From the NCBI RefSeq assembly GCF_025996515.1, contig NZ_BLRH01000014.1, positions 124,001-188,000 on the forward strand: a DNA stretch of 64,000 bases. Reading direction: 5' to 3'. Below the pieces are notes generated by a model that saw nothing but the letters and a program-made list of their open reading frames with translations, did no database searches and had not been told where the DNA came from. The translations under genes and the position numbers were made by a program. Positions within the stretch are counted from its first letter, which is position 1; every line of letters starts with the position of its first letter. Positions 1,164-63,680 of this stretch are shown piece by piece. This DNA comes from Rhizohabitans arisaemae. GTDB taxonomy: Bacteria; Actinomycetota; Actinomycetes; Streptosporangiales; Streptosporangiaceae.

Positions 1164-2948
1164 TCAGCGGCCCCCGGGCGTCGAGGTCACCAGCCGTTTG
1201 GTGTACCAGTGCTCCGGTTCGGTCAGCACTCCGGCCGTCTCTCCGCTCTCCACCACCTGTCCGCGGTGCAGGACGACGACGCGCTCGGTCATCTGCCGGG
1301 CGACCGCCAGGTCGTGGGTGATGAAGAGCATGGCGATCTTCCTCTCCCGGCGCAGGTCGCGGAAGAGTTCGAGGATCTGCGCCTGGACGGACACGTCCAA
1401 CGCCGCGACCGGCTCGTCGCAGATGAGCAGGTCGGGGTCGGTGGCGATCGCCCGGGCGATCGCCACGCGCTGCCGTTCGCCCCCCGACAGCGCCGGAGGG
1501 CGGCGGCTCGCGTACCCGGCCGGCAGGCCCACCAGGGCCAGGAGATCGGCCTCGGCCGGTACGGGACGGTCCCGCCGGTGCGGCACGCGGTGCCGGATCG
1601 CCTCGCGCAGGCACGCGCCGACGGTCAGCGAGGGGTTGAGCGAGGAGTACGGGTCCTGGAAGACGACCTGGACCGCGGGCCTGTGCCCACGCCCGAAGCG
1701 GATCTCGCCGGAGTCCGCGGTCTCGAGTCCGAGCAGGATGCGGGCGATGGTCGACTTGCCGGAGCCCGACTCACCGAGGAGCCCGAGCGATTCGCCCTCG
1801 CGGATGCGGAACGACACGCCGTCCAGAGCCGTGGTGCTTCGCCCGGGACCGACGAGCGGCCTGCTCCGGAACGTCTTGCGGAGCTCGCCGACCACGACCA
1901 GATCGTCCGGTCGCCCGGCGTCCTCCGCCCGTGTTTCCCCGGCGTCGTCCCGGTCCGCGAGCATCGCGTCCAGCTCAGCCCCGATGTCGGCGACGCGCGT
2001 GCACGCCGTCAGGTGACCCGCCCCGACGGGTGACAGCGTCGGCCTGGTTTCCCGGCAGGGTCCCGCGTGCCAGGAGCAGCGGTCGGAGAACGGGCAGGTG
2101 TGCCGGACGGCGTCCGCCGCGGGCACACTGCCGGGGATGGAGGTCAGCTCGGCGAGGTATCTGTCCCTGGGGACCCGGGACCTGAGCAGGCCCAGCGTGT
2201 AGGGGTGGCGCGGGCGCGTCGCGAGCGTCCCGGCCGGAGCGCTCTCCAGCACGGCCCCGGCGTACATCACCACGACGTCGTCACAGGCGCCGAACGCGAC
2301 GTCCAGGTCGTGGGTGACCAGGATCAGCGACATGCCGCGGCTCTCCCGCAGCCGGCCGAGCAGGTTCAGCACGTCGGCCTGCGAGGAGGGGTCGAGCGCG
2401 GTCGTCGGCTCGTCGGCGAGGAGCAGGTCGGGGTCCCGCCCGAGCGCGGCGGCGATGGCGACCCGCTGACGCATGCCTCCCGACAGCTGGAAGGGGTAGT
2501 CGTCCGCCACCGTGGGGTCCAGCCCGACTTCGGCCAGGCGGCGGGTCGTCTCCTCCCTGCTCGCCGCGCGGTCCGAGCGGATCTCGGGCGCCAGCGACTC
2601 CCGGAGCGTCACGCCCACCCGCTGGAGCGGGTTGAGCATGGTGAACGGGTCTTGCAGGAGCAGGCTGATCCGCTCACCCCGGACGGTTCGAAGCCGCCGC
2701 TCCGGCAGGCCGATGAGCTGAAGACCGTCCAGCCTGACCTCGCCGTCGGCGCGGACGCCGCTCGGGAGCAGTCCGACGAGGGACCGGAGCGTCATCGATT
2801 TCCCCGAACCGGATTCTCCGACGACGCCCAGCGCCGCCCCCCGGGCGATGGTGAAATCCAGCTCACCGGCGAGCCGGCGCGGCCGGCCGCCGACGTCGGC
2901 GGTGATCGTGAGTCCGGTCGCCGACAGCAGAGGGGGGTGGGGTGTCAT
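1164..2948 (-). CDS. Fused tandem ATPase of a peptide-type ABC importer (DppD-DppF fusion)
   Basis: The 594-residue protein carries two complete ABC ATPase cassettes. The first has Walker A GESGSGKS near residue 45, signature LSGGMRQRV and Walker B LLLADEP, followed by the cysteine-containing tail typical of oligopeptide transporter ATPases (CPFSDRC). The second starts near residue 345 with GESGSGKST, LSGGERQRV and LLICDEP. In most systems these are two genes, DppD and DppF; here they form one polypeptide that energises the permeases encoded just upstream. The ATG at 2948 overlaps the permease stop (ATGA). An open frame extends further upstream, but that part is a shadow of the permease gene. 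Substrate is unknown. Confidence 0.93.
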   Translation of the reverse strand: MTPHPPLLSATGLTITADVGGRPRRLAGELDFTIARGAALGVVGESGSGKSMTLRSLVGLLPSGVRADGEVRLDGLQLIGLPERRLRTVRGERISLLLQDPFTMLNPLQRVGVTLRESLAPEIRSDRAASREETTRRLAEVGLDPTVADDYPFQLSGGMRQRVAIAAALGRDPDLLLADEPTTALDPSSQADVLNLLGRLRESRGMSLILVTHDLDVAFGACDDVVVMYAGAVLESAPAGTLATRPRHPYTLGLLRSRVPRDRYLAELTSIPGSVPAADAVRHTCPFSDRCSWHAGPCRETRPTLSPVGAGHLTACTRVADIGAELDAMLADRDDAGETRAEDAGRPDDLVVVGELRKTFRSRPLVGPGRSTTALDGVSFRIREGESLGLLGESGSGKSTIARILLGLETADSGEIRFGRGHRPAVQVVFQDPYSSLNPSLTVGACLREAIRHRVPHRRDRPVPAEADLLALVGLPAGYASRRPPALSGGERQRVAIARAIATDPDLLICDEPVAALDVSVQAQILELFRDLRRERKIAMLFITHDLAVARQMTERVVVLHRGQVVESGETAGVLTEPEHWYTKRLVTSTPGGR

Positions 2949-25824: not shown

Positions 25825-28149
25825 GTGTCGTACGCAGGATCCTCAGTCGACCCGCCGGACCCTTACGGGCAGTCGCCCGATGTCACGGGGAGTGGCCGCG
25901 GGCCGGGACCTGCGGAGGGGGACGGCTTCACCGCGTCGCCCCCGCGCGGTCGGGGCGACGACGGCCGGGAGCTCAGCCGGGGCCAGCAGCGGATCTCCCC
26001 CCACGAGGCGTGGGGTTCCCGGGACGTCGACGACACCGGTCCACAGACGGGTTGGATAGGGCATCTCCCTGCGATTGACGACACCGGTCCCCAGACCGGC
26101 TGGATCGGGCACATCCCTGCGATGCCTCCGACTCAGGAGGATCCCGCCACGAGCAAGGTCAACGGTCCGTCCGGTCCGATCGACCAGTGGAGCAGCCCGC
26201 CGACACCGGCTCCGCCGACACCGGCCGCCGCCGGCCCCTACGGGCCGGACCCGGGTGGGTGGCCGCCGGAGTCTCCCGGGCCGGCCACCGGTGCGTACGG
26301 CCGGCCGCATCCGACCCCGGAGCCGGCGGCCCCCGGCCCGTACGGCAGGCCGGATCGGCGCTGGGACGAGGCGCCAGGCCGTACGGCGGTCGCCTCGGAA
26401 CCCGGGTATCCGGTTTCCACCCCCGCCGTCGGCGGGCCGGGGGGAGCCGACCCCGTCGGCTCAGCCGGCGAAGGGCCGCCGGAGAGGCGGAAGTCGGTGC
26501 TGAAACTCGTCGCGCTGGGCGTGCTGGTCCTCGCCGTGCTGGCGTACGCCGTTCCGGCGGTGATCCTCTCCGGTGAGATCAGGCCGGGCACGAGCGTTGC
26601 CGGGATCGATATCGGTGGGATGACCAGGGCAGACGCCGAGGCGAAGATCCGTACCACGCTGAACGCCCGAATCCGCAAGGCCATCAGGGCCGAGGTGGGG
26701 AACAAGAAGTTCGAGCTGATCCCGGTGGACGTCGGGCTGACCTTCGACGTGGGGGCGATGCTGGAGGGAGCCGAAACCGGCTTCCCCGGCCCGGTGGCGG
26801 TCTTCGACGCCTTAACCGGAACCCGGACCCTCCCCCTCAAGGTGGACGTGGAGGAGCAGGCCCTGGACAGTGCCATCGCGACCGTGGCCGGGGCCGTCGA
26901 CCAGCGGGTGCGCGAGGGCTCCGTGCGCTTCAAAGGGACCGTTCCCGCCTCGGTGACGCCGCGGAACGGCAGGACCCTGGACCGCAAGGCGAGCGCGGAG
27001 GCGATCCGGGCGGCGTTCCTGGCGGGGAAGACCTCCGTGCGGTTGCCCACCGTCACGGTCCGCCCGAAGGTCTCCGCCGCGGAGGTGAAGCGGACCGTGG
27101 GTAAGATCGCCCCGGCTGCCGTCGCCGGCCCGATTACGCTGAAAAACGGCACCAAGTCAGCGGCACTCCAGCCGGCGGTCATCGCGGCGAACCTGGAGTT
27201 CGTCCCCGACGGGCAGGGCGGGCTGCGTCCTGAGTTCGACGGGAAGACGGCGGTCGAAGGCATCGGGACGAAGCTGGTCGACGCCGGTAAGGCCCCCAAG
27301 GACGCCACCTTCGACGTGGTGCGGGGGAAGCTGAAGTTCATCCCGGGCAAAAAGGGCCAGGGGGTGGACTCCGACAAGCTCTCCGCGTCCGTCGAGGAGC
27401 TCCTGGCCGAGGGCGGCGGCGGCCGTACGGTCGACGTGAAGCTCACCACCGTCGAGCCGAAGATCACCGACGAGGAGGTCAAGGGGCTCGGCATCAAGGA
27501 GAAGATCAGCGAGTTCACCTCGAACTACCCCTGCTGCGCGCCGCGGGTGAAGAACATCCACGCCATCGCCAAGATCCTGGACGGCTACGTCGTGCGGCCG
27601 GGGGAGACCTTCTCACTCAACGACATCGTGGGGGAGCGGGACACCGCCCGCGGCTTCGTGGAGGCGCCGATGATCGAGCGGGGCCGCTTGGTCAACAGCG
27701 TCGGCGGCGGTATCTCGCAGTTCGCGACCACGATGTTCAACGCGGTCTTCTTCGGCGGGCTGCAGTCGGTCCAGCACACCCCGCACGAGTTCTACATCTC
27801 CCGCTATCCGGCGGGCCGCGAGTCGACCGTCTCGTTCCCGCAGCCGGACTTCCGGTGGAAGAACGACTCCAAGTACGGCGTCCTGGTCAAGACCGGCGTC
27901 ACCGGTACGTCGGTCACCGTGCAGTTCTGGAGCACCAAGCGCTACGACATCGAATCAAAGAGCTCGGAAAGGTATAACGTCACCACTTTCGAGACAATTC
28001 GGGAGAGCGCCGACGACTGCATCCCGATGCCCGGCGCGCTGGGCTTCACCATCGACGTCTGGCGGATCTTCAAACAGAACGGGCGGGAGATCAAGCGGCA
28101 GCAGTTCCACACCGTCTACAAGCCGGAGATCAAGCTGATCTGCGAGTGA
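25825..28149 (+). CDS. VanW-family, peptidoglycan-associated membrane protein
   Basis: The 774-residue protein has a long proline- and glycine-rich cytoplasmic N-terminus (1-220), one transmembrane helix (about 225-249) and a large extracellular part. The latter has two repeated regions resembling the peptidoglycan-binding PG_binding_4/YoaR domain (GTSVAGIDIGGMTRADAEAKI first) and a VanW domain at about 575-700 (RPGETFSLNDIVGER, VGGGISQFATTMFNAVFFGG). The family is envelope-associated and its exact function is unsettled. Residues 69-100 are an exact-phase 16-residue tandem repeat. GTG 25825 follows GGAGGGAC. The next gene starts 26 bp later. Confidence 0.9.
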   Translation: MSYAGSSVDPPDPYGQSPDVTGSGRGPGPAEGDGFTASPPRGRGDDGRELSRGQQRISPHEAWGSRDVDDTGPQTGWIGHLPAIDDTGPQTGWIGHIPAMPPTQEDPATSKVNGPSGPIDQWSSPPTPAPPTPAAAGPYGPDPGGWPPESPGPATGAYGRPHPTPEPAAPGPYGRPDRRWDEAPGRTAVASEPGYPVSTPAVGGPGGADPVGSAGEGPPERRKSVLKLVALGVLVLAVLAYAVPAVILSGEIRPGTSVAGIDIGGMTRADAEAKIRTTLNARIRKAIRAEVGNKKFELIPVDVGLTFDVGAMLEGAETGFPGPVAVFDALTGTRTLPLKVDVEEQALDSAIATVAGAVDQRVREGSVRFKGTVPASVTPRNGRTLDRKASAEAIRAAFLAGKTSVRLPTVTVRPKVSAAEVKRTVGKIAPAAVAGPITLKNGTKSAALQPAVIAANLEFVPDGQGGLRPEFDGKTAVEGIGTKLVDAGKAPKDATFDVVRGKLKFIPGKKGQGVDSDKLSASVEELLAEGGGGRTVDVKLTTVEPKITDEEVKGLGIKEKISEFTSNYPCCAPRVKNIHAIAKILDGYVVRPGETFSLNDIVGERDTARGFVEAPMIERGRLVNSVGGGISQFATTMFNAVFFGGLQSVQHTPHEFYISRYPAGRESTVSFPQPDFRWKNDSKYGVLVKTGVTGTSVTVQFWSTKRYDIESKSSERYNVTTFETIRESADDCIPMPGALGFTIDVWRIFKQNGREIKRQQFHTVYKPEIKLICE
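26029..26124 (+). repeat. Tandem 48-bp coding repeat in the VanW gene
   Basis: Two adjacent 48-bp units (26029-26076 and 26077-26124) encode DDTGPQTGWIGHLPAI and DDTGPQTGWIGHIPAM. The copies differ at several bases, mostly silent, so the peptide is better conserved than the DNA. It lies in the cytoplasmic disordered tail. Confidence 0.85.
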
Positions 28150-54627: not shown

Positions 54628-56631
54628 TCAGGCCTGGACGAGCCCCCTGCGTGCGAGCAGCGGCTCGATCGAGGCGTCCCGCCCGCGGAACGCCCGGAAA
54701 ACCTCCATCGCGTCGGCGCTGCCGCCCTTGGCGAGCAGCTCGCGCCGGAACCGGTCGCCGTTCCCCCGGCGCAGGCCGCCGTTCTCCTTGAACCACTCGA
54801 CCGTGTCCGCGTCCAGGATCTCGCTCCAGATGTAGGAGTAGTACCCGGCGCTGTAGCCGCCGGCGAAAATGTGGGCGAAGTAGGTGCTTCGATAGCGCGG
54901 AGGTACGGTCGCCAAGGCCACCCCCGCCTTCTCCAGCGCCGATCGCTCGAACTCCTCCACCTCGCCCGGGTCCTCATCGGCGCCCAGCCGATGCCAGGCC
55001 AGATCGAGGAGCGTGGCGGCGAGATACTCCGTCGTCGCGTAACCCTGGTTGAACCGCTGCGACGCGACCACCCGGTCCGCCAGCTCCTGCGGCATCGGCT
55101 CGCCCGTCCGATGATGCCTGGCGTAGTTGGCCAGCACCTCCGGCCACACCGCCCACATCTCGTTGACCTGAGACGGATACTCCACGAAATCACGGGGCAC
55201 CGACGTCCCGGAGAAACGGGGGTACCGGACATCGGAGAAGAGGCCGTGCAGCGCATGGCCGAACTCGTGGAACAACGTCGTGACCTCGTCGAACGTCAGC
55301 AACGTCGGCTCCCCGTCCGCCGGCTTGGGAATGTTGAGGTTGTTGACCACGACGGGGCGCCGACCCGTGAGACGCGACTGGCTGACCAGACTGTTCATCC
55401 ACGCCCCACCGCGCTTGGAGGCACGCGCGTGGAAATCGCCCAGATACAGGCCGAGCGGCGACCCGTCCTCGTCGAACACCTCGAACACCCGGACATCGCT
55501 GTGATAGCCCTCCAGGTCCGGGCGGGCGGTGAAGCGCAGCCCGTACAGCAGCCCGGCCGCGTGGAAGACGCCGTCGAGCAGCACCCGGTCCAGTTCGAAG
55601 TACGGGCGCAAGCCGGCGCTGTCCACGTCGAAACGCTCCCTGCGCACCCGGTCCGCGTGGAAAGACCAATCCCAAGCCTGAAGATCGGGCACCTGGAACG
55701 CCTCGGCCTCCCGGTGCGCGTTGGCGACGGCGGCCGGAACAAGCCTGCCGAGCATCCCCGTCACCGCGGCGCTCGTCTCCGCCGTCTGATCCGCGATCAC
55801 ATAATCCGCGTGATTCGCGAACCCCAGCAGAACCGCCCGCTCCGCCCGCAACCTCGCCATCCGCACCACCAGTTCGGCGTTGTCCGGCAACCCCCGTGAC
55901 ACCGACGCGTCGAACAGGCGCCGACGGAGCCCACGATCGGTCAACTGCCCCAAAGCCGGCTGATTCGTGAACAACGACAACGTCAGCAGATAATTGCCGG
56001 CCAAACCGCGGGCTTTCGCCTCCGCCGCCGCGGCACCGATCGCGTCCTCCGGTAGCCCGTCCAGCTCGGCCGCGCTCTCCACCACCACCGCCCGCTCATT
56101 CGTATCGGCCAGCAGGTTCCGCTGAAAAGCGGTGCCAAGCGTGGAAAGCTCCTCGTTGATCTCACGGAGCCGCTCCTTCTCCCCGGCCCCGAGGCCCGCC
56201 CCCGCTCGGACGAAATCCCGGTGATACCGCTCCACCAGCCACGCCGACTCCGGATCGAGGCCGTCCCTGGCCTCGTAGACGGCCCTGATCCGGTCGAACA
56301 GCGCGGAGTTCAACCGGATCGCGTCACCATGCTTGGCCAGCTCCGGCGTGACCTCGGCCTCAATCCGCTGAATCTCCGGATCGGTATCCGAAGACGCCTG
56401 ATTGAAAAACACCGCCGACACCCGCTCCAGCAGATCCCCAGAAAGCTCCAACGCGACCACCGTGTTCTCCAGCGAAGGAGCCTCCCCACTCGACACGATC
56501 ACCTCGATCGCGGCCAGCTGCTCCGCCATACCCCGCTCGAACGCGGGGACGAAATGCTCCGAACGGATCTCGCCGAAAGGCGGAAGCTCATACGGGAGAG
56601 CGCTCGGCGAGAAGAACGGGTTGACGGCCAT
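54628..56631 (-). CDS. M3-family metallopeptidase (peptidyl-dipeptidase / oligopeptidase A type)
   Basis: The 667-residue cytoplasmic zinc peptidase has HEFGHALHGLFS in its catalytic core, with the third ligand in VEYPSQVNEMWAVWPEVL, and the tyrosine-rich YFAHIFAGGYSAGYYSYIWSE near the C-terminus. The N-terminus (NPFFSPSALPYELPPFGEIRSEHFVPAFERGM) is standard for Dcp/PrlC enzymes. It trims short peptides. ATG 56631 is used. The gene is convergent with gltX. Confidence 0.95.
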   Translation of the reverse strand: MAVNPFFSPSALPYELPPFGEIRSEHFVPAFERGMAEQLAAIEVIVSSGEAPSLENTVVALELSGDLLERVSAVFFNQASSDTDPEIQRIEAEVTPELAKHGDAIRLNSALFDRIRAVYEARDGLDPESAWLVERYHRDFVRAGAGLGAGEKERLREINEELSTLGTAFQRNLLADTNERAVVVESAAELDGLPEDAIGAAAAEAKARGLAGNYLLTLSLFTNQPALGQLTDRGLRRRLFDASVSRGLPDNAELVVRMARLRAERAVLLGFANHADYVIADQTAETSAAVTGMLGRLVPAAVANAHREAEAFQVPDLQAWDWSFHADRVRRERFDVDSAGLRPYFELDRVLLDGVFHAAGLLYGLRFTARPDLEGYHSDVRVFEVFDEDGSPLGLYLGDFHARASKRGGAWMNSLVSQSRLTGRRPVVVNNLNIPKPADGEPTLLTFDEVTTLFHEFGHALHGLFSDVRYPRFSGTSVPRDFVEYPSQVNEMWAVWPEVLANYARHHRTGEPMPQELADRVVASQRFNQGYATTEYLAATLLDLAWHRLGADEDPGEVEEFERSALEKAGVALATVPPRYRSTYFAHIFAGGYSAGYYSYIWSEILDADTVEWFKENGGLRRGNGDRFRRELLAKGGSADAMEVFRAFRGRDASIEPLLARRGLVQA

Positions 56632-56786
56632 ACGGCGGCTCCTTCAAGCGATGACGTCCGGCCACCAGGGTTACACAGCAACCGTCCGACAAGGCCCGAC
56701 AAGCACCCACCCGACCCACCGACCACCGAAGACGCCGGCCGCGACACGAGTTTTTGCCACACATCCGAGATCTCCAAGCATTCGCT

Positions 56787-56849
56787 TTGGTCTCAAGGCC
56801 CACAGTCGGCTATTCTTTCGGAGTCGAGCGCGGCCAACAGGCCGCCTCG
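56787..56849 (+). promoter_or_regulatory. Candidate promoter and 5' hairpin of tRNA-Gln
   Basis: TTGGTC (56787-56792) and TATTCT (56811-56816) are 18 bases apart, a fair sigma-70-type pair. The expected transcript would begin with a hairpin: CGAG, a bulged C and GCGGCC (56825-56835) pair with GGCCGC and CTCG (56840-56849), immediately before the tRNA. Confidence 0.5.
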
Positions 56850-56850
56850 G

Positions 56851-56922
56851 TGGGGTATGGGGTAATTGGCAGCCCAACTGATTCTGGTTCAGTTAGTCTA
56901 GGTTCGAGTCCTGGTACCCCAG
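56851..56922 (+). tRNA. tRNA-Gln (CUG)
   Basis: The 72-base cloverleaf has acceptor TGGGGTA / TACCCCA, anticodon stem ACTGA / TCAGT with loop TTCTGGT (anticodon CTG), and T-arm CTAGG-TTCGAGT-CCTGG. The first pair is U1-A72, the identity feature GatCAB recognises. CCA is not encoded. The repeat unit downstream begins with the same CAG that ends the acceptor region. Confidence 0.95.
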
Positions 56923-57008
56923 CACGATCGGGTCTTGGTGCTCGCCCCCTTCGGGGGGCTTCGCCCAAGGCCCGTGCTGTATTTATCCCGGGGGGACGAT
57001 CCCCCCGG
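56920..57008 (+). repeat. Hairpin-rich 89-bp direct repeat, copy 1
   Basis: This unit starts at the 3' end of tRNA-Gln and is repeated at 57065-57153 with one mismatch in 89 bases. It includes GCCCCCTTCGGGGGGC, a C(UUCG)G tetraloop hairpin, and CCGGGGGGACGATCCCCCCGG, another stem-loop. Copy 1 is followed by a 10-base extra AGCCCCCCGG absent from copy 2. No gene is credible here. Confidence 0.85.
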
Positions 57009-57018
57009 AGCCCCCCGG

Positions 57019-57463
57019 TGTGGCGGCTTCGCCGCCACCTGCGGACCTGGTTCCTGTGGCTCGCCAGCACGATCGGGTCCTGGTGCTCGCCCCCTTCGGG
57101 GGGCTTCGCCCAAGGCCCGTGCTGTATTTATCCCGGGGGGACGATCCCCCCGGTGTGGCGGCTTCGCCGCCATCTGCGGACCTGGTGCTGGGCTCGCCCT
57201 TCGGGCGTCGCGAGGTGGCTGTGCTTGAGCCTTAGCCGGTGTGGCGGCTTCGCCGCCATCTGTGGACCCGGTTCCTGTGGCTCGCCCTTCGGGCTTCGCT
57301 GGTGGTGTTTCGATGGACCGGTTCGCTGAGCTCGCCCTTCGGGCATCGCCGGGGGGCCTTCGGCCTCGTGGCCCCAGGACCGCTGGTGTGGCGGCTTCGC
57401 CGCCACCTGTGGACCCGGTTCCTGTCGCTTGCCCTTCGGGCTTCGCTGGTGGTGTTTCGATGG
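57019..57463 (+). repeat. Four copies of a UUCG-hairpin module
   Basis: A module beginning TGTGGCGGCTTCGCCGCCA recurs at 57019, 57154, 57240 and 57387. The last two copies share a longer unit of about 77 bases ending GGTGGTGTTTCGATGG, 147 bp apart. Each has the GGCGGC/GCCGCC hairpin, and most also have GCCCTTCGGGC (cUUCGg loop). Frames across the tract read differently in each copy, which argues against coding. It may be a repetitive element or a processed hairpin RNA. Confidence 0.75.
57065..57153 (+). repeat. Hairpin-rich 89-bp direct repeat, copy 2
   Basis: Second copy of the unit at 56920-57008, 145 bp downstream, differing by one C/T. The very high identity in noncoding DNA points to recent duplication or conversion. 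Confidence 0.85.
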
Positions 57464-57750
57464 GTACTTTTGGTGGGCTTGCCCTTTGGGCTTCGCGGGG
57501 TGGCCTGTTTGAGTTGTGGCCGGTGTGGGGGCTTGCCGCGCTTGGGGCGGCTTCGGCCAAGGCCCGTGCTGCGTCTCGGCGTTCTTGCGTTGGCTTGGGC
57601 TCTTTCGCCCCGGGAAACCTGGTCACGGCCTCGTCCGGGGCGACGGGGCACCCGCTCGCTCGCCGGCACCTCCTGGGACCTGATCGTCTTGAACGCGACC
57701 GCCTGGGTGAACTCGCCATGAGATACCCGGGCCCGGCGGAGTGCGGTCCG
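57464..57750. other. Decaying end of the hairpin tract and spacer
   Basis: Weaker hairpin fragments continue to about 57560 (GCCCTTTGGGC, GGCGGCTTCGGCC). From there to 57750 I see no repeat, gene or clear signal. The next gene is on the minus strand and ends at 57751. Confidence 0.4.
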
Positions 57751-58443
57751 TCAGACCCCCAGATCCCGGGCGAGCAAGGCCGCCTGGAGTCGGCTGCGCA
57801 GCCCCAGTTTTCCCAGGACCCGGCTGACGTGGGTCTTCACCGTGCCTTCGGCCAGATCGAGGCGGTCGGCGATCTCAGCGTTGGACAGTCCCTCACCGAG
57901 GCAGGAGAACACGTCGCGCTCCCGATGGGTGAGAGTGTCGACGACGGAGGGATCGGGGCTGCCGGCACCGTGTACCGGGTGGGCGGTGGCGAGCTTCGCG
58001 ATCAGGCGACGGGTCACAGCCGGTGCGATCAGTCCCTCTCCACGCGCCACGGTGCGTACGGCCTCCAGCAGGTCGGCCGCGTCGGTGTTCTTCAGGATGA
58101 AGCCCGCGGCACCAGCCTGCAGCGCACCAAGAAGGTACTCGTCCAGGTCGAAGGTGGTCAGCACCAGTACATCGGCCAATCCTTCCGCGACGATTCGGCG
58201 GGTGGCCGAGACACCGTCGAGCCGGGGCATCCGGATGTCCATCAGCACCAGGTCGGGGCGGAGCCGCCGGGCGAGCACCACCGCCTCTTCGCCGTCCGCC
58301 GCCTCGCCCACGACGTCGACGTCCGGGGCGCTGCCCAGGATGAGCACCAGCCCTGCCCGTACCGAACTCTGGTCCTCGGCTACCAACACCCGCACCCGCT
58401 CTTCGGGCCCGGAGCGGTCGCCGGTCGCTGTGCACTCGGTCAT
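57751..58443 (-). CDS. NarL/FixJ-family response regulator
   Basis: The 230-residue regulator has an N-terminal receiver domain (VRVLVAEDQSSVRAGLVLIL; phospho-acceptor Asp in DLVLMDIRMPRLDGV; Thr/Lys switch region in VLTTFDLDEYL and FILKNTDAADLL). A C-terminal LuxR-type helix-turn-helix follows (LTHRERDVFSCLGEGLSNAEIADRLDLAEGTVKTHVSRVLGKLGL). It is encoded after its partner kinase and overlaps it by four bases. The regulated genes are not evident. Confidence 0.95.
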   Translation of the reverse strand: MTECTATGDRSGPEERVRVLVAEDQSSVRAGLVLILGSAPDVDVVGEAADGEEAVVLARRLRPDLVLMDIRMPRLDGVSATRRIVAEGLADVLVLTTFDLDEYLLGALQAGAAGFILKNTDAADLLEAVRTVARGEGLIAPAVTRRLIAKLATAHPVHGAGSPDPSVVDTLTHRERDVFSCLGEGLSNAEIADRLDLAEGTVKTHVSRVLGKLGLRSRLQAALLARDLGV

Positions 58444-59684
58444 GCGGAGGACTCCTGGTCATGGTGTACGGGTAGGACGGCACGTACGCGCCAGACATCC
58501 GGCGGCCCTCCGGGCGGGCCCGGGGCGGGTCCCGCCTCCACCTCTCCTTTCACCAGGCCAACCCGCTCCCGGATGCCGATCAGGCCACTGCCCGAGCCGG
58601 GGGCGCGTGGATGGGATCGGCTCAGGTAAGGGCTGGTCACCGCCACCGTAAGTGTGCCGTCGGTGTCCTGCGACAGCTGTATCCGCACCTCACCGGCGCC
58701 CGCGTGCTTCAGGGCGTTGGTCAGCGATTCCTGGACCAGGCGATAGGCCGCCAGTTCCACCGGCGCGGGCAGCGGCGGCTTCTCGTTCCGCCGGTCGTCG
58801 AGGGTGAAGGTGAGCCCGCTCGGGGCGCCGTCGGTACGCGCCTTCTCCGCCAAGGTCTCCAGTCCGGCGAGAGTGGGGACGGCGGCCGGCGACCGGTCGT
58901 CGTCACCCTCCCGGAGCAGCCCGATCATGCGGCGCATGTCGGCCAGTGCGGCGACGCTGTTCTCCCGGATGGTCCCCAGGGACTGCCGCGTGGTCGCCGG
59001 GTCGTCAAGGGAGAGCGCGGCGGTGGAGTGGATGGCGATGGCCGAGAGATGGTTGGCGACCATGTCGTGCAGTTCACGGGCCATCCGCCCGCGTTCGGCC
59101 GCGACCGCCTGCGCCTGGTCCATCTCGGCGAGCAACGTGGTCTGCTCCGCCCGCAGCCGGGCCACGTCGGCGGCCTCCCGGTGGTTGCGAATGATCACAC
59201 CGGTCATGGCGGGGGCAATGGTGATCATGCCGATGACTACCCCGAGCAGCAGCCCTTGGGGAGACCTGGTCCACAGGAGCAAGGCGATGGTCGAGGCCAC
59301 CGTGAGCGGCACCGAGACCACGGGGATCCGCCGGGCGATCCGGGGCGGCCCGTAGACCACCGCCGCGTACACCACGTCGGTGAAGACCAGGATGGTGGCC
59401 AGGTTTCCGACCGTGAAGAGGTCGGCGATCAGTGCCACCGTGCCGACCAGCAGGGCGACCGGCGGCAGCGAGCGGCGGAACAGTTCGGCCGCACAGATCA
59501 CCGCCAGCGGCACCAGGGCCGCCCAGGCGGGCAGTGGCGACATCGGGTGGCTGTACAGGCCCAGGGACCACAGGAGCACACCGCCGAGGAACGCGGCCAC
59601 GGCGATGAACACATCATCGCGATGGGGACGAAGGAACCTCACCGTTCCATCAAACACCCAGGTGAGACCAGGGGGCCTCACCAC
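58440..59684 (-). CDS. Membrane sensor histidine kinase (NarL-partner type)
   Basis: The kinase of about 414 residues has five or so membrane helices in the first 160 residues, a HisKA_3 dimerisation segment with the phosphorylated histidine in RMARELHDMVANHLSAIAIHS, and a C-terminal ATP domain (LTNALKHAGAGEVRIQL, GSGLIGIRERVGLVKGEVEAG). It is paired with the overlapping response regulator. The start is uncertain: GTG 59684 lacks a strong ribosome-binding site and later GTG codons are possible. Confidence 0.92.
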   Translation of the reverse strand: MVRPPGLTWVFDGTVRFLRPHRDDVFIAVAAFLGGVLLWSLGLYSHPMSPLPAWAALVPLAVICAAELFRRSLPPVALLVGTVALIADLFTVGNLATILVFTDVVYAAVVYGPPRIARRIPVVSVPLTVASTIALLLWTRSPQGLLLGVVIGMITIAPAMTGVIIRNHREAADVARLRAEQTTLLAEMDQAQAVAAERGRMARELHDMVANHLSAIAIHSTAALSLDDPATTRQSLGTIRENSVAALADMRRMIGLLREGDDDRSPAAVPTLAGLETLAEKARTDGAPSGLTFTLDDRRNEKPPLPAPVELAAYRLVQESLTNALKHAGAGEVRIQLSQDTDGTLTVAVTSPYLSRSHPRAPGSGSGLIGIRERVGLVKGEVEAGPAPGPPGGPPDVWRVRAVLPVHHDQESSA

Positions 59685-62996: not shown

Positions 62997-63069
62997 GGCC
63001 CCGTCGTCTAGTGGCCTAGGACGCCGCCCTCTCAAGGCGGTAACGCCGGTTCGAATCCGGTCGGGGCTA
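62997..63069 (+). tRNA. tRNA-Glu (CUC)
   Basis: The 73-base cloverleaf has acceptor GGCCCCG / CGGGGCT (G1-U72 wobble), D-arm beginning GTCTAG, anticodon stem CCGCC / GGCGG with loop CTCTCAA (anticodon CTC) and T-arm GCCGG-TTCGAAT-CCGGT (outermost pair G-U). It is the substrate of GltX. CCA is not encoded. Confidence 0.95.
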
Positions 63070-63078
63070 CAGGTCTTG

Positions 63079-63407: not shown

Positions 63408-63680
63408 CGGTTCAGCCCCACGGGTGTGGGGAGCAGCGGCACACGGTGTACGGGGAGAGCCCGGGCACCGGTTCACCCCCACGGGGTGTGGGGAGCAGTC
63501 CGGGTACGGCACGACCACCGGGATCATGCTCGGTTCACCCCCACGGGTGTGGGGAGCAGCTCGTGTACGACTCCGTATCGGGCCGGGCGGTCGGTTCACC
63601 CCCACGGGTGTGGGGAGCAGCTTGACGAACGGCGGCTTGCTCTTCTTCTTGGCGGTTCACCCCCACGGGTGTGGGAGCAG
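63408..63680 (-). CRISPR. CRISPR array, type I-E-like repeat, five repeats and four spacers
   Basis: Repeats begin at 63408, 63469, 63531, 63592 and 63653 and read CGGTTCACCCCCACGGG followed by TGTGGGGAGCAG on the plus strand. All four spacers are 32 bases. One repeat has an extra G (63469) and the last lacks one G (63653). By comparison with the E. coli I-E repeat, transcription runs on the minus strand, ending each repeat in GTGAACCG, the likely 8-base 5' handle of the crRNA. The leader is then at the right end (63681 onward). No cas gene lies in the window. Confidence 0.93.

Follow-up and report, generated by a model that had tools for sequence, protein, structure and literature searches.

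A hairpin cassette is repeated in tandem behind tRNA-Gln

In the 64,000-nt stretch of Rhizohabitans arisaemae DNA that we analyzed (the window), a tRNA-Gln gene is followed by about 4.5 tandem units of a hairpin cassette, which together occupy positions 56923 to 57575. The cassette starts with a long hairpin whose internal loop is made of pyrimidines. A short link rich in T joins this to a core hairpin made of a G-run and a C-run, after which come a repeat of the 3′ arm of the core and, usually, a variable hairpin. The features are listed below with bit scores from two models: R1, built from 15 copies of this genome that are themselves among its matches here, and R2, built from 35 sequences of other genomes with this genome excluded.

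56851 to 56922, + strand: tRNA-Gln (anticodon CTG), the gene preceding the array (ARAGORN, 56851 to 56923; Rfam RF00005, 56851 to 56922, 57.1 bits)
56923 to 56979, + strand: unit 1, long terminator-like hairpin with a GCTCG...CTTCG internal loop (fold z of unit 1, -4.05; alignment with 30 other trailers)
56980 to 56986, + strand: unit 1, T-rich link TATTTAT (sequence; aligned T-rich columns)
56987 to 57008, + strand: unit 1, core hairpin CCCGGGGGGACGATCCCCCCGG (arms 56988 to 57008; R1, 71.3 bits at 56976 to 57044; R2, 48.0 bits)
57009 to 57018, + strand: unit 1, repeat of the core 3′ arm, AGCCCCCCGG (sequence; C-run lengths, given below)
57020 to 57038, + strand: unit 1, second hairpin GTGGCGGCTTCGCCGCCAC (repeat, motif, and stem analyses)
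57066 to 57186, + strand: unit 2, with long hairpin, link, core (57132 to 57153), and second hairpin (57155 to 57173) (repeat family D3; R1, 52.3 bits; R2, 29.6 bits)
57187 to 57324, + strand: unit 3, degenerate, core unrecognizable, second hairpin (57241 to 57259) retained (repeat families D1, D2, and D5; R1, 22.0 bits at 57216 to 57265)
57325 to 57471, + strand: unit 4, degenerate, second hairpin (57388 to 57406) retained (86% identity to unit 3 over 125 nt; R1, 34.6 bits; R2, 13.8 bits)
57472 to 57575, + strand: partial unit (remnant), whose end at 57541 to 57571 is like the end of the unit 1 long hairpin (repeat families D4, 90%, and D5, 85%)

The original prediction described two 89-bp units with 88/89 identical bases, the first starting at the tRNA 3′ end, and both points were borne out (56920 to 57008 versus 57065 to 57153, with the tRNA ending at 56923 by ARAGORN or 56922 by Rfam). 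The four copies of a second module, GGCGGCTTCGCCGCC, were also found (at 57015, 57150, 57236, and 57383), but they do not all follow the 89-bp units as had been thought, since copies 1 and 2 alternate with these units and only copies 3 and 4 come after them. The spacings of 135, 86, and 147 place the copies in two reading frames; the frames support the earlier view that the tract is noncoding and are its sole basis. Unit 2 is without the 10-nt second arm present in unit 1, and in units 3 and 4 the core is no longer recognizable while the second hairpin is kept; R2 did not detect unit 3 at an E value of ≤1.

Matches to GGCGGCTTCGCCGCC with up to one mismatch number four in the window, all exact, versus 0.12 expected, and none of 100 shuffled sequences reached four. 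When the 652-nt tract was compared with 98 blocks of the same size, which tile the entire window and hence contain pieces of the tract, it held 20 TTCG tetramers (block mean, 3.1; maximum, 17) and nine perfect stems of at least 7 bp (block mean, 3.05; maximum, 7). Its 21 stems of at least 5 bp equal the block maximum of 21 (mean, 13), so that only the long stems are exceptional. None of 200 shuffled sequences was as stable as the unit 1 fold, and for the entire tract (z of -2.96) none of 20 was.

The cassette recurs behind other RNA genes of the same genome

Used as a query against the 8.33-Mb genome, the tract gave 11 matches, and those elsewhere follow tRNA-Thr, tRNA-Val(CAC), a group of Gly, Cys, and Val tRNAs, and a pair of Gly and Val tRNAs. 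The 59 tRNAs found in the genome form 50 units, and inspection of every flank by eye found a tract behind 14 of them; that of tRNA-Ala(TGC) is partial only. The genome has 12 exact GGYGGCTTCGCCGCCA sites, every one of them inside such a tract and on the tRNA strand, while the reversed pattern has no site. R1 gave 41 matches in this genome at an E value of ≤1 and 31 at <1e-4. Of these strong matches, 30 were assigned by hand to positions behind tRNAs, tmRNA, or, at an integrated island, a tRNA 3′ fragment, and the remaining one is located behind a protein gene that we take to resemble FKBP. Of matches placed at random, 0.46% would fall on the right strand and at most 1.5 kb downstream of any of 51 units. 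Two of the 31 belong to the tRNA-Thr tract and lie about 1.35 to 1.5 kb from the tRNA, past a reading frame. Because the R1 training copies sit among these matches, the independent test is that in other genomes.

At tRNA-Gly(CCC) (L271, G000:C59:600900-618900), the last 26 bases of the gene are repeated 14.5 and 15.6 kb downstream, with an island between. Both 3′ fragments precede a tract copy (R2, 50.7 and 35.9 bits), and in the relative G105 the module stands directly behind an intact tRNA-Gly. We infer that the tract belonged to tRNA-Gly(CCC) before an element integrated.

The search for similar tracts behind other tRNAs, proposed with the original prediction, thus found them, and the absence of the units elsewhere that would have suggested a passive local duplication therefore did not hold. 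Duplication of a GC-rich sequence without wider meaning would fit tandem copies that decay, but the same cassette also follows other tRNAs, both in this genome and in many genera, which makes this reading highly improbable. As the whole story it was rejected, because the cassette recurs genome-wide and in relatives; passive duplication may be the origin of the extra copies.

Some of these tracts have further features. In L009, a reading frame at about 1800 to 2750 (minus strand) lies between the tRNA-Thr tract copies, like a gene trapped within the array. Behind tRNA-Leu(TAG) and tRNA-Ala(GGC) (L063 and L072), the first cassette unit is followed by different tandem repeats that are not the cassette.

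The cassette in other genomes

Among 120 genomes of the family, this one included, 79 had a match at an E value of ≤1e-3 and 41 had none, and among 345 genomes of the class 69 had a match at ≤1e-4 (17 in the same family, 30 in family f17, 19 in family f18, and a single match in each of three others); these counts, like those below, pool related genomes. In 25 of the 29 best loci of other genomes, a tRNA or tmRNA end was found on the same strand 40 to 56 nt before the match, the exceptions being L129, L144, L147, and L148. A further 40 loci were picked by hand down the match listing, and 28 of them adjoin an RNA gene by ARAGORN (≤330 nt), with 5 others added on inspection by eye; of 24 class loci, the corresponding numbers are 15 and 3. 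The cassette of f17 has the same layout as that of the R. arisaemae family. This second family is probably the Frankiaceae, as suggested by the Frankia loci L177, L208, and L218, which are missing from the listed nonadjacent matches. Neither of the two f18 loci that we viewed (L350 and L361) is RNA-linked.

Two complete genomes had RNA-linked shares of 10 of 15 matches (G097, two of them behind tmRNA) and 7 of 11 (G221) at an E value of ≤1e-4, leaving 5 and 4 matches, respectively, that were not RNA-linked; at ≤0.01 the tRNA-adjacent shares were 9 of 26 and 7 of 17. Several of the matches that are not RNA-linked lie behind protein genes, one of which, we presume, has an IF-2-like end.

A search of window positions 56000 to 58500 against Rfam 15 (E ≤ 1) returned the tRNA only, with no family match to the tract. 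At the other loci searched, the Rfam 15 matches were tmRNA alone at L111 and L115, a single tRNA for L266 to L271, and none at L129, L144, L147, and L148. The literature searched contained no description of the cassette, nor did the core string GGGGGGACGACCCCCC occur in it.

Structure of the long hairpin and the core

Behind RNA genes, the 5′ motif of the long hairpin, TG[GCT]T[CT][GA], was present in 33 of 39 trailers versus 24% of shuffled sequences. In 22 of the 39, the predicted fold contained a 2x2 or 2x3 internal loop, versus 11% of shuffled sequences. The stem sequences of this hairpin vary between loci. In the core, one pair is variable across 35 sequences (G-C in 13, C-G in 11, A-U in 5, U-A in 4, and unpaired in 2), so that pairing is kept in 33 of 35, and the other pairs are almost invariant. 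In at least 226 of 260 contexts, pooled over related and dispersed copies, the C-run of the core and the C-run that follows it are of one length (r = 0.72). This second C-run could serve as an alternative partner for the G-run. The second hairpin has 28 distinct arm pairs among the 39 trailers, the best stem having been taken per sequence without a control. The T-rich link, TATTTAT in the window, is weak in many relatives' copies, and some have no U-run. A crude scan of the 50 tRNA units for perfect-stem terminators did not separate those with a tract (6 of 14) from those without (13 of 36).

The original prediction also considered an RNA processed together with the tRNA. The position and strand of the cassette, directly behind tRNA and tmRNA genes, and the stable predicted fold of unit 1 would suit a tract that is cotranscribed with tRNA-Gln, cut off, and put to work as a small RNA or a sponge. 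Against this reading, the RNA genes concerned are unrelated, as are the stem sequences, and there is little conserved unpaired sequence available for base pairing, so we think it quite improbable.

Joint gain or loss of the long-hairpin motif and the core at tmRNA

An exact 18-base tmRNA-type 3′ end was found in 96 of the 120 family genomes, and 10 family genomes had the strict cassette pattern behind it, a count that is an underestimate because the spacing limit misses longer hairpins. We fetched 30 tmRNA-type loci, of which ARAGORN called 28 as tmRNA, 27 of them with downstream sequence; L416 and L429, whose tmRNA status ARAGORN did not confirm, and L421, which had no downstream sequence, were left out. 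The internal-loop motif was present in 9 of the 11 loci with a core and in none of the 16 loci without one, with L427 counted as core bearing by eye and the motif pattern defined after the sequences had been seen. Fisher's test gave a P value of 5.5e-6 for 9 of 11 versus 0 of 18, with L416 and L429 still included and kinship uncorrected. Many of the core-less loci have plain hairpins. The mean number of T residues in the next 8 nt was 3.6 with the core and 1.8 without it, at hairpin ends that are not cleanly set. Thus, at tmRNA the long-hairpin motif and the core are gained or lost together.

The tRNA-proximal copy is the best preserved in most arrays

In seven of eight arrays of this genome, the tRNA-proximal copy had the best R2 score (with a tie in one), averaging 20 bits above the other copies (permutation P values of 0.0025 and 0.0003, with copies that R2 failed to detect entered as 10 bits). 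This polarity is compatible both with selection on the proximal unit and with new arrivals beside the tRNA. Under the latter view, a selfish hairpin element would land preferentially at tRNA and tmRNA 3′ ends, with repeated arrivals, the newest proximal and the older ones decaying outward. The better preservation of the proximal copy and the patchy presence of the cassette at tmRNA both agree with such an element. However, the tRNA-Pro array reads A A B A B′, a pattern to be expected of block duplication; the variable core pair covaries four ways; and just 1 of the 31 strong matches in this genome lies off RNA genes, which is unexpected under simple terminator targeting.

The core is dispersed in some genomes

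In the collection of named genomes, a 27-base core pattern matched 115 stretches. Among the 80 core loci listed (85 matches), only 19 have a tRNA within 150 nt, and 3 are at contig edges; dispersed copies dominate this pattern, which is why so few of the listed loci are near a tRNA. All 80 are, by our reading of their sources, actinobacterial, mostly from Streptosporangiales groups, plus Frankia, Pseudofrankia, and one Propionibacteriaceae MAG. The small share of loci near a tRNA argues against a core that is exclusive to tRNAs. When up to two mismatches were allowed, Trebonia kvetii had 71 core copies and three Streptosporangiaceae MAGs had 117, 26, and 32, with 0 in the control, and part of the cassette can therefore spread without RNA genes. 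In G121, most tandem core copies have a spacing of 39 nt.

Dispersed core was seen at loci L204, L207, L182, and L225 and in genomes G120 to G123, sometimes in frame within conserved protein genes and in either orientation. One in-frame copy coincides with an exact 13-residue gap against biotin carboxylase 9yx0, and another, in an aminotransferase, with an exact 12-residue gap against a solved homologue. Two cases are less clean: UvrD, with 34 unaligned residues terminating at the core element, and EttA, with an 8-residue gap beside it.

The dispersal of the core in four genomes (26 to 117 copies per genome) and its in-frame occurrence in proteins speak for the selfish element and bear out in part the "mobile hairpin element" of the original prediction. 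In R. arisaemae itself, however, the core is tied to tRNA and tmRNA 3′ ends, and no PF01797 transposase was found. With both sides considered, we regard the selfish element as possible but somewhat unlikely.

Proposed role and comparison with known systems

The genes for tRNA and tmRNA rank among the most transcribed, and to our knowledge the ending of such transcripts in high-GC actinobacteria is poorly described. In its own family and in a second one, the cassette is found directly downstream of tmRNA and of many unrelated tRNA genes, on the strand of the RNA gene. As judged from sequence, the tract is best read, with a probability of about 0.6, as a tandem and partly decayed array of a clade-specific stable-RNA trailer cassette acting in termination or 3′-end formation, and the cassette probably helps to end tRNA and tmRNA transcripts. 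The tRNA-proximal unit would end the transcript and set the 3′ end of the precursor, replacing a plain hairpin terminator, and the core behind the T-rich link would act as a second barrier. Extra units would arise by unequal recombination, and distal units would decay because only the proximal one is under selection. Several findings count against this role: the T-rich link that is weak in many copies, the strong matches off RNA genes in G097 and G221, the 41 family genomes with no match, the terminator scan that did not separate the tRNA units, and the dispersed core. Since unrelated RNA genes in two families share the cassette, and an orthologous gene either has it or lacks it as one unit, it poses a testable question about transcript ends.

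Intrinsic (Rho-independent) terminators, tandem ones included, consist of a GC-rich hairpin with a T-rich stretch. The cassette is like them in having a GC-rich hairpin directly behind the RNA gene; the hairpin is present in unit 1, and trailers at other loci fold alike. A T-rich stretch comes after it in unit 1; in many relatives this stretch is weak or absent. Unlike them, it has an internal loop of conserved sequence, an extra core hairpin with a duplicated arm, a family likeness across the clade, and tandem arrays of whole units.

REP and BIME repeats, which are associated with RAYT transposases, are short palindromes scattered outside genes, often at gene ends. The cassette shares these traits, but here it is tied to tRNA and tmRNA, and many dispersed intergenic copies are not a feature of this genome, given that 30 of its 31 strong matches are RNA-linked; dispersed copies were seen only in other genomes. 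The original prediction had included a reverse-transcriptase or REP-like repeat. A search for the Y1 transposase family of RAYT (PF01797) gave no match in this genome (G000), and a RAYT-driven REP was rejected for it; the family was found in 2 of 10 carrier genomes tested (G119 and G120) versus 3 of 5 genomes in which the model had no match. REPs are mentioned in PMC10969869, which also names SPRITE, a pneumococcal rho-independent terminator-like element. Like SPRITE, the cassette is a repeat family resembling a terminator, but it is found in another phylum and has a different sequence. We know of no link between SPRITE and tRNAs. PMC10969869 also describes the Rickettsia palindromic elements, palindromes in frame inside protein genes. 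Only the dispersed core is like these, in its in-frame insertion within conserved proteins, and it differs in being actinobacterial, with a tandem spacing of mostly 39 nt as compared with about 150 bp for the Rickettsia elements; the copies in the window lie outside genes.

A broader scheme, which we offer tentatively and consider rather unlikely, is that Streptosporangiales and Frankia-type actinobacteria possess a dedicated stable-RNA 3′-end system. In it, a putative factor would read the internal loop and the G-C-C core, and the cassette would have displaced plain terminators behind many genes for tRNA and tmRNA and would multiply in tandem, while the core would have escaped in some lineages as an in-frame palindromic mobile element. 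A link to the in-frame palindromic repeat would tie a gene-end signal to selfish DNA.

Other repeats in the window

Two further repeats were seen in the window. A tandem array with a period of 61, at 63469 to 63622, lies just behind tRNA-Glu (62997 to 63070), and its unit is one that we take to resemble a CRISPR repeat plus spacer. At 26029 to 26123 there is a 48-nt direct repeat in two copies that match at 87%.
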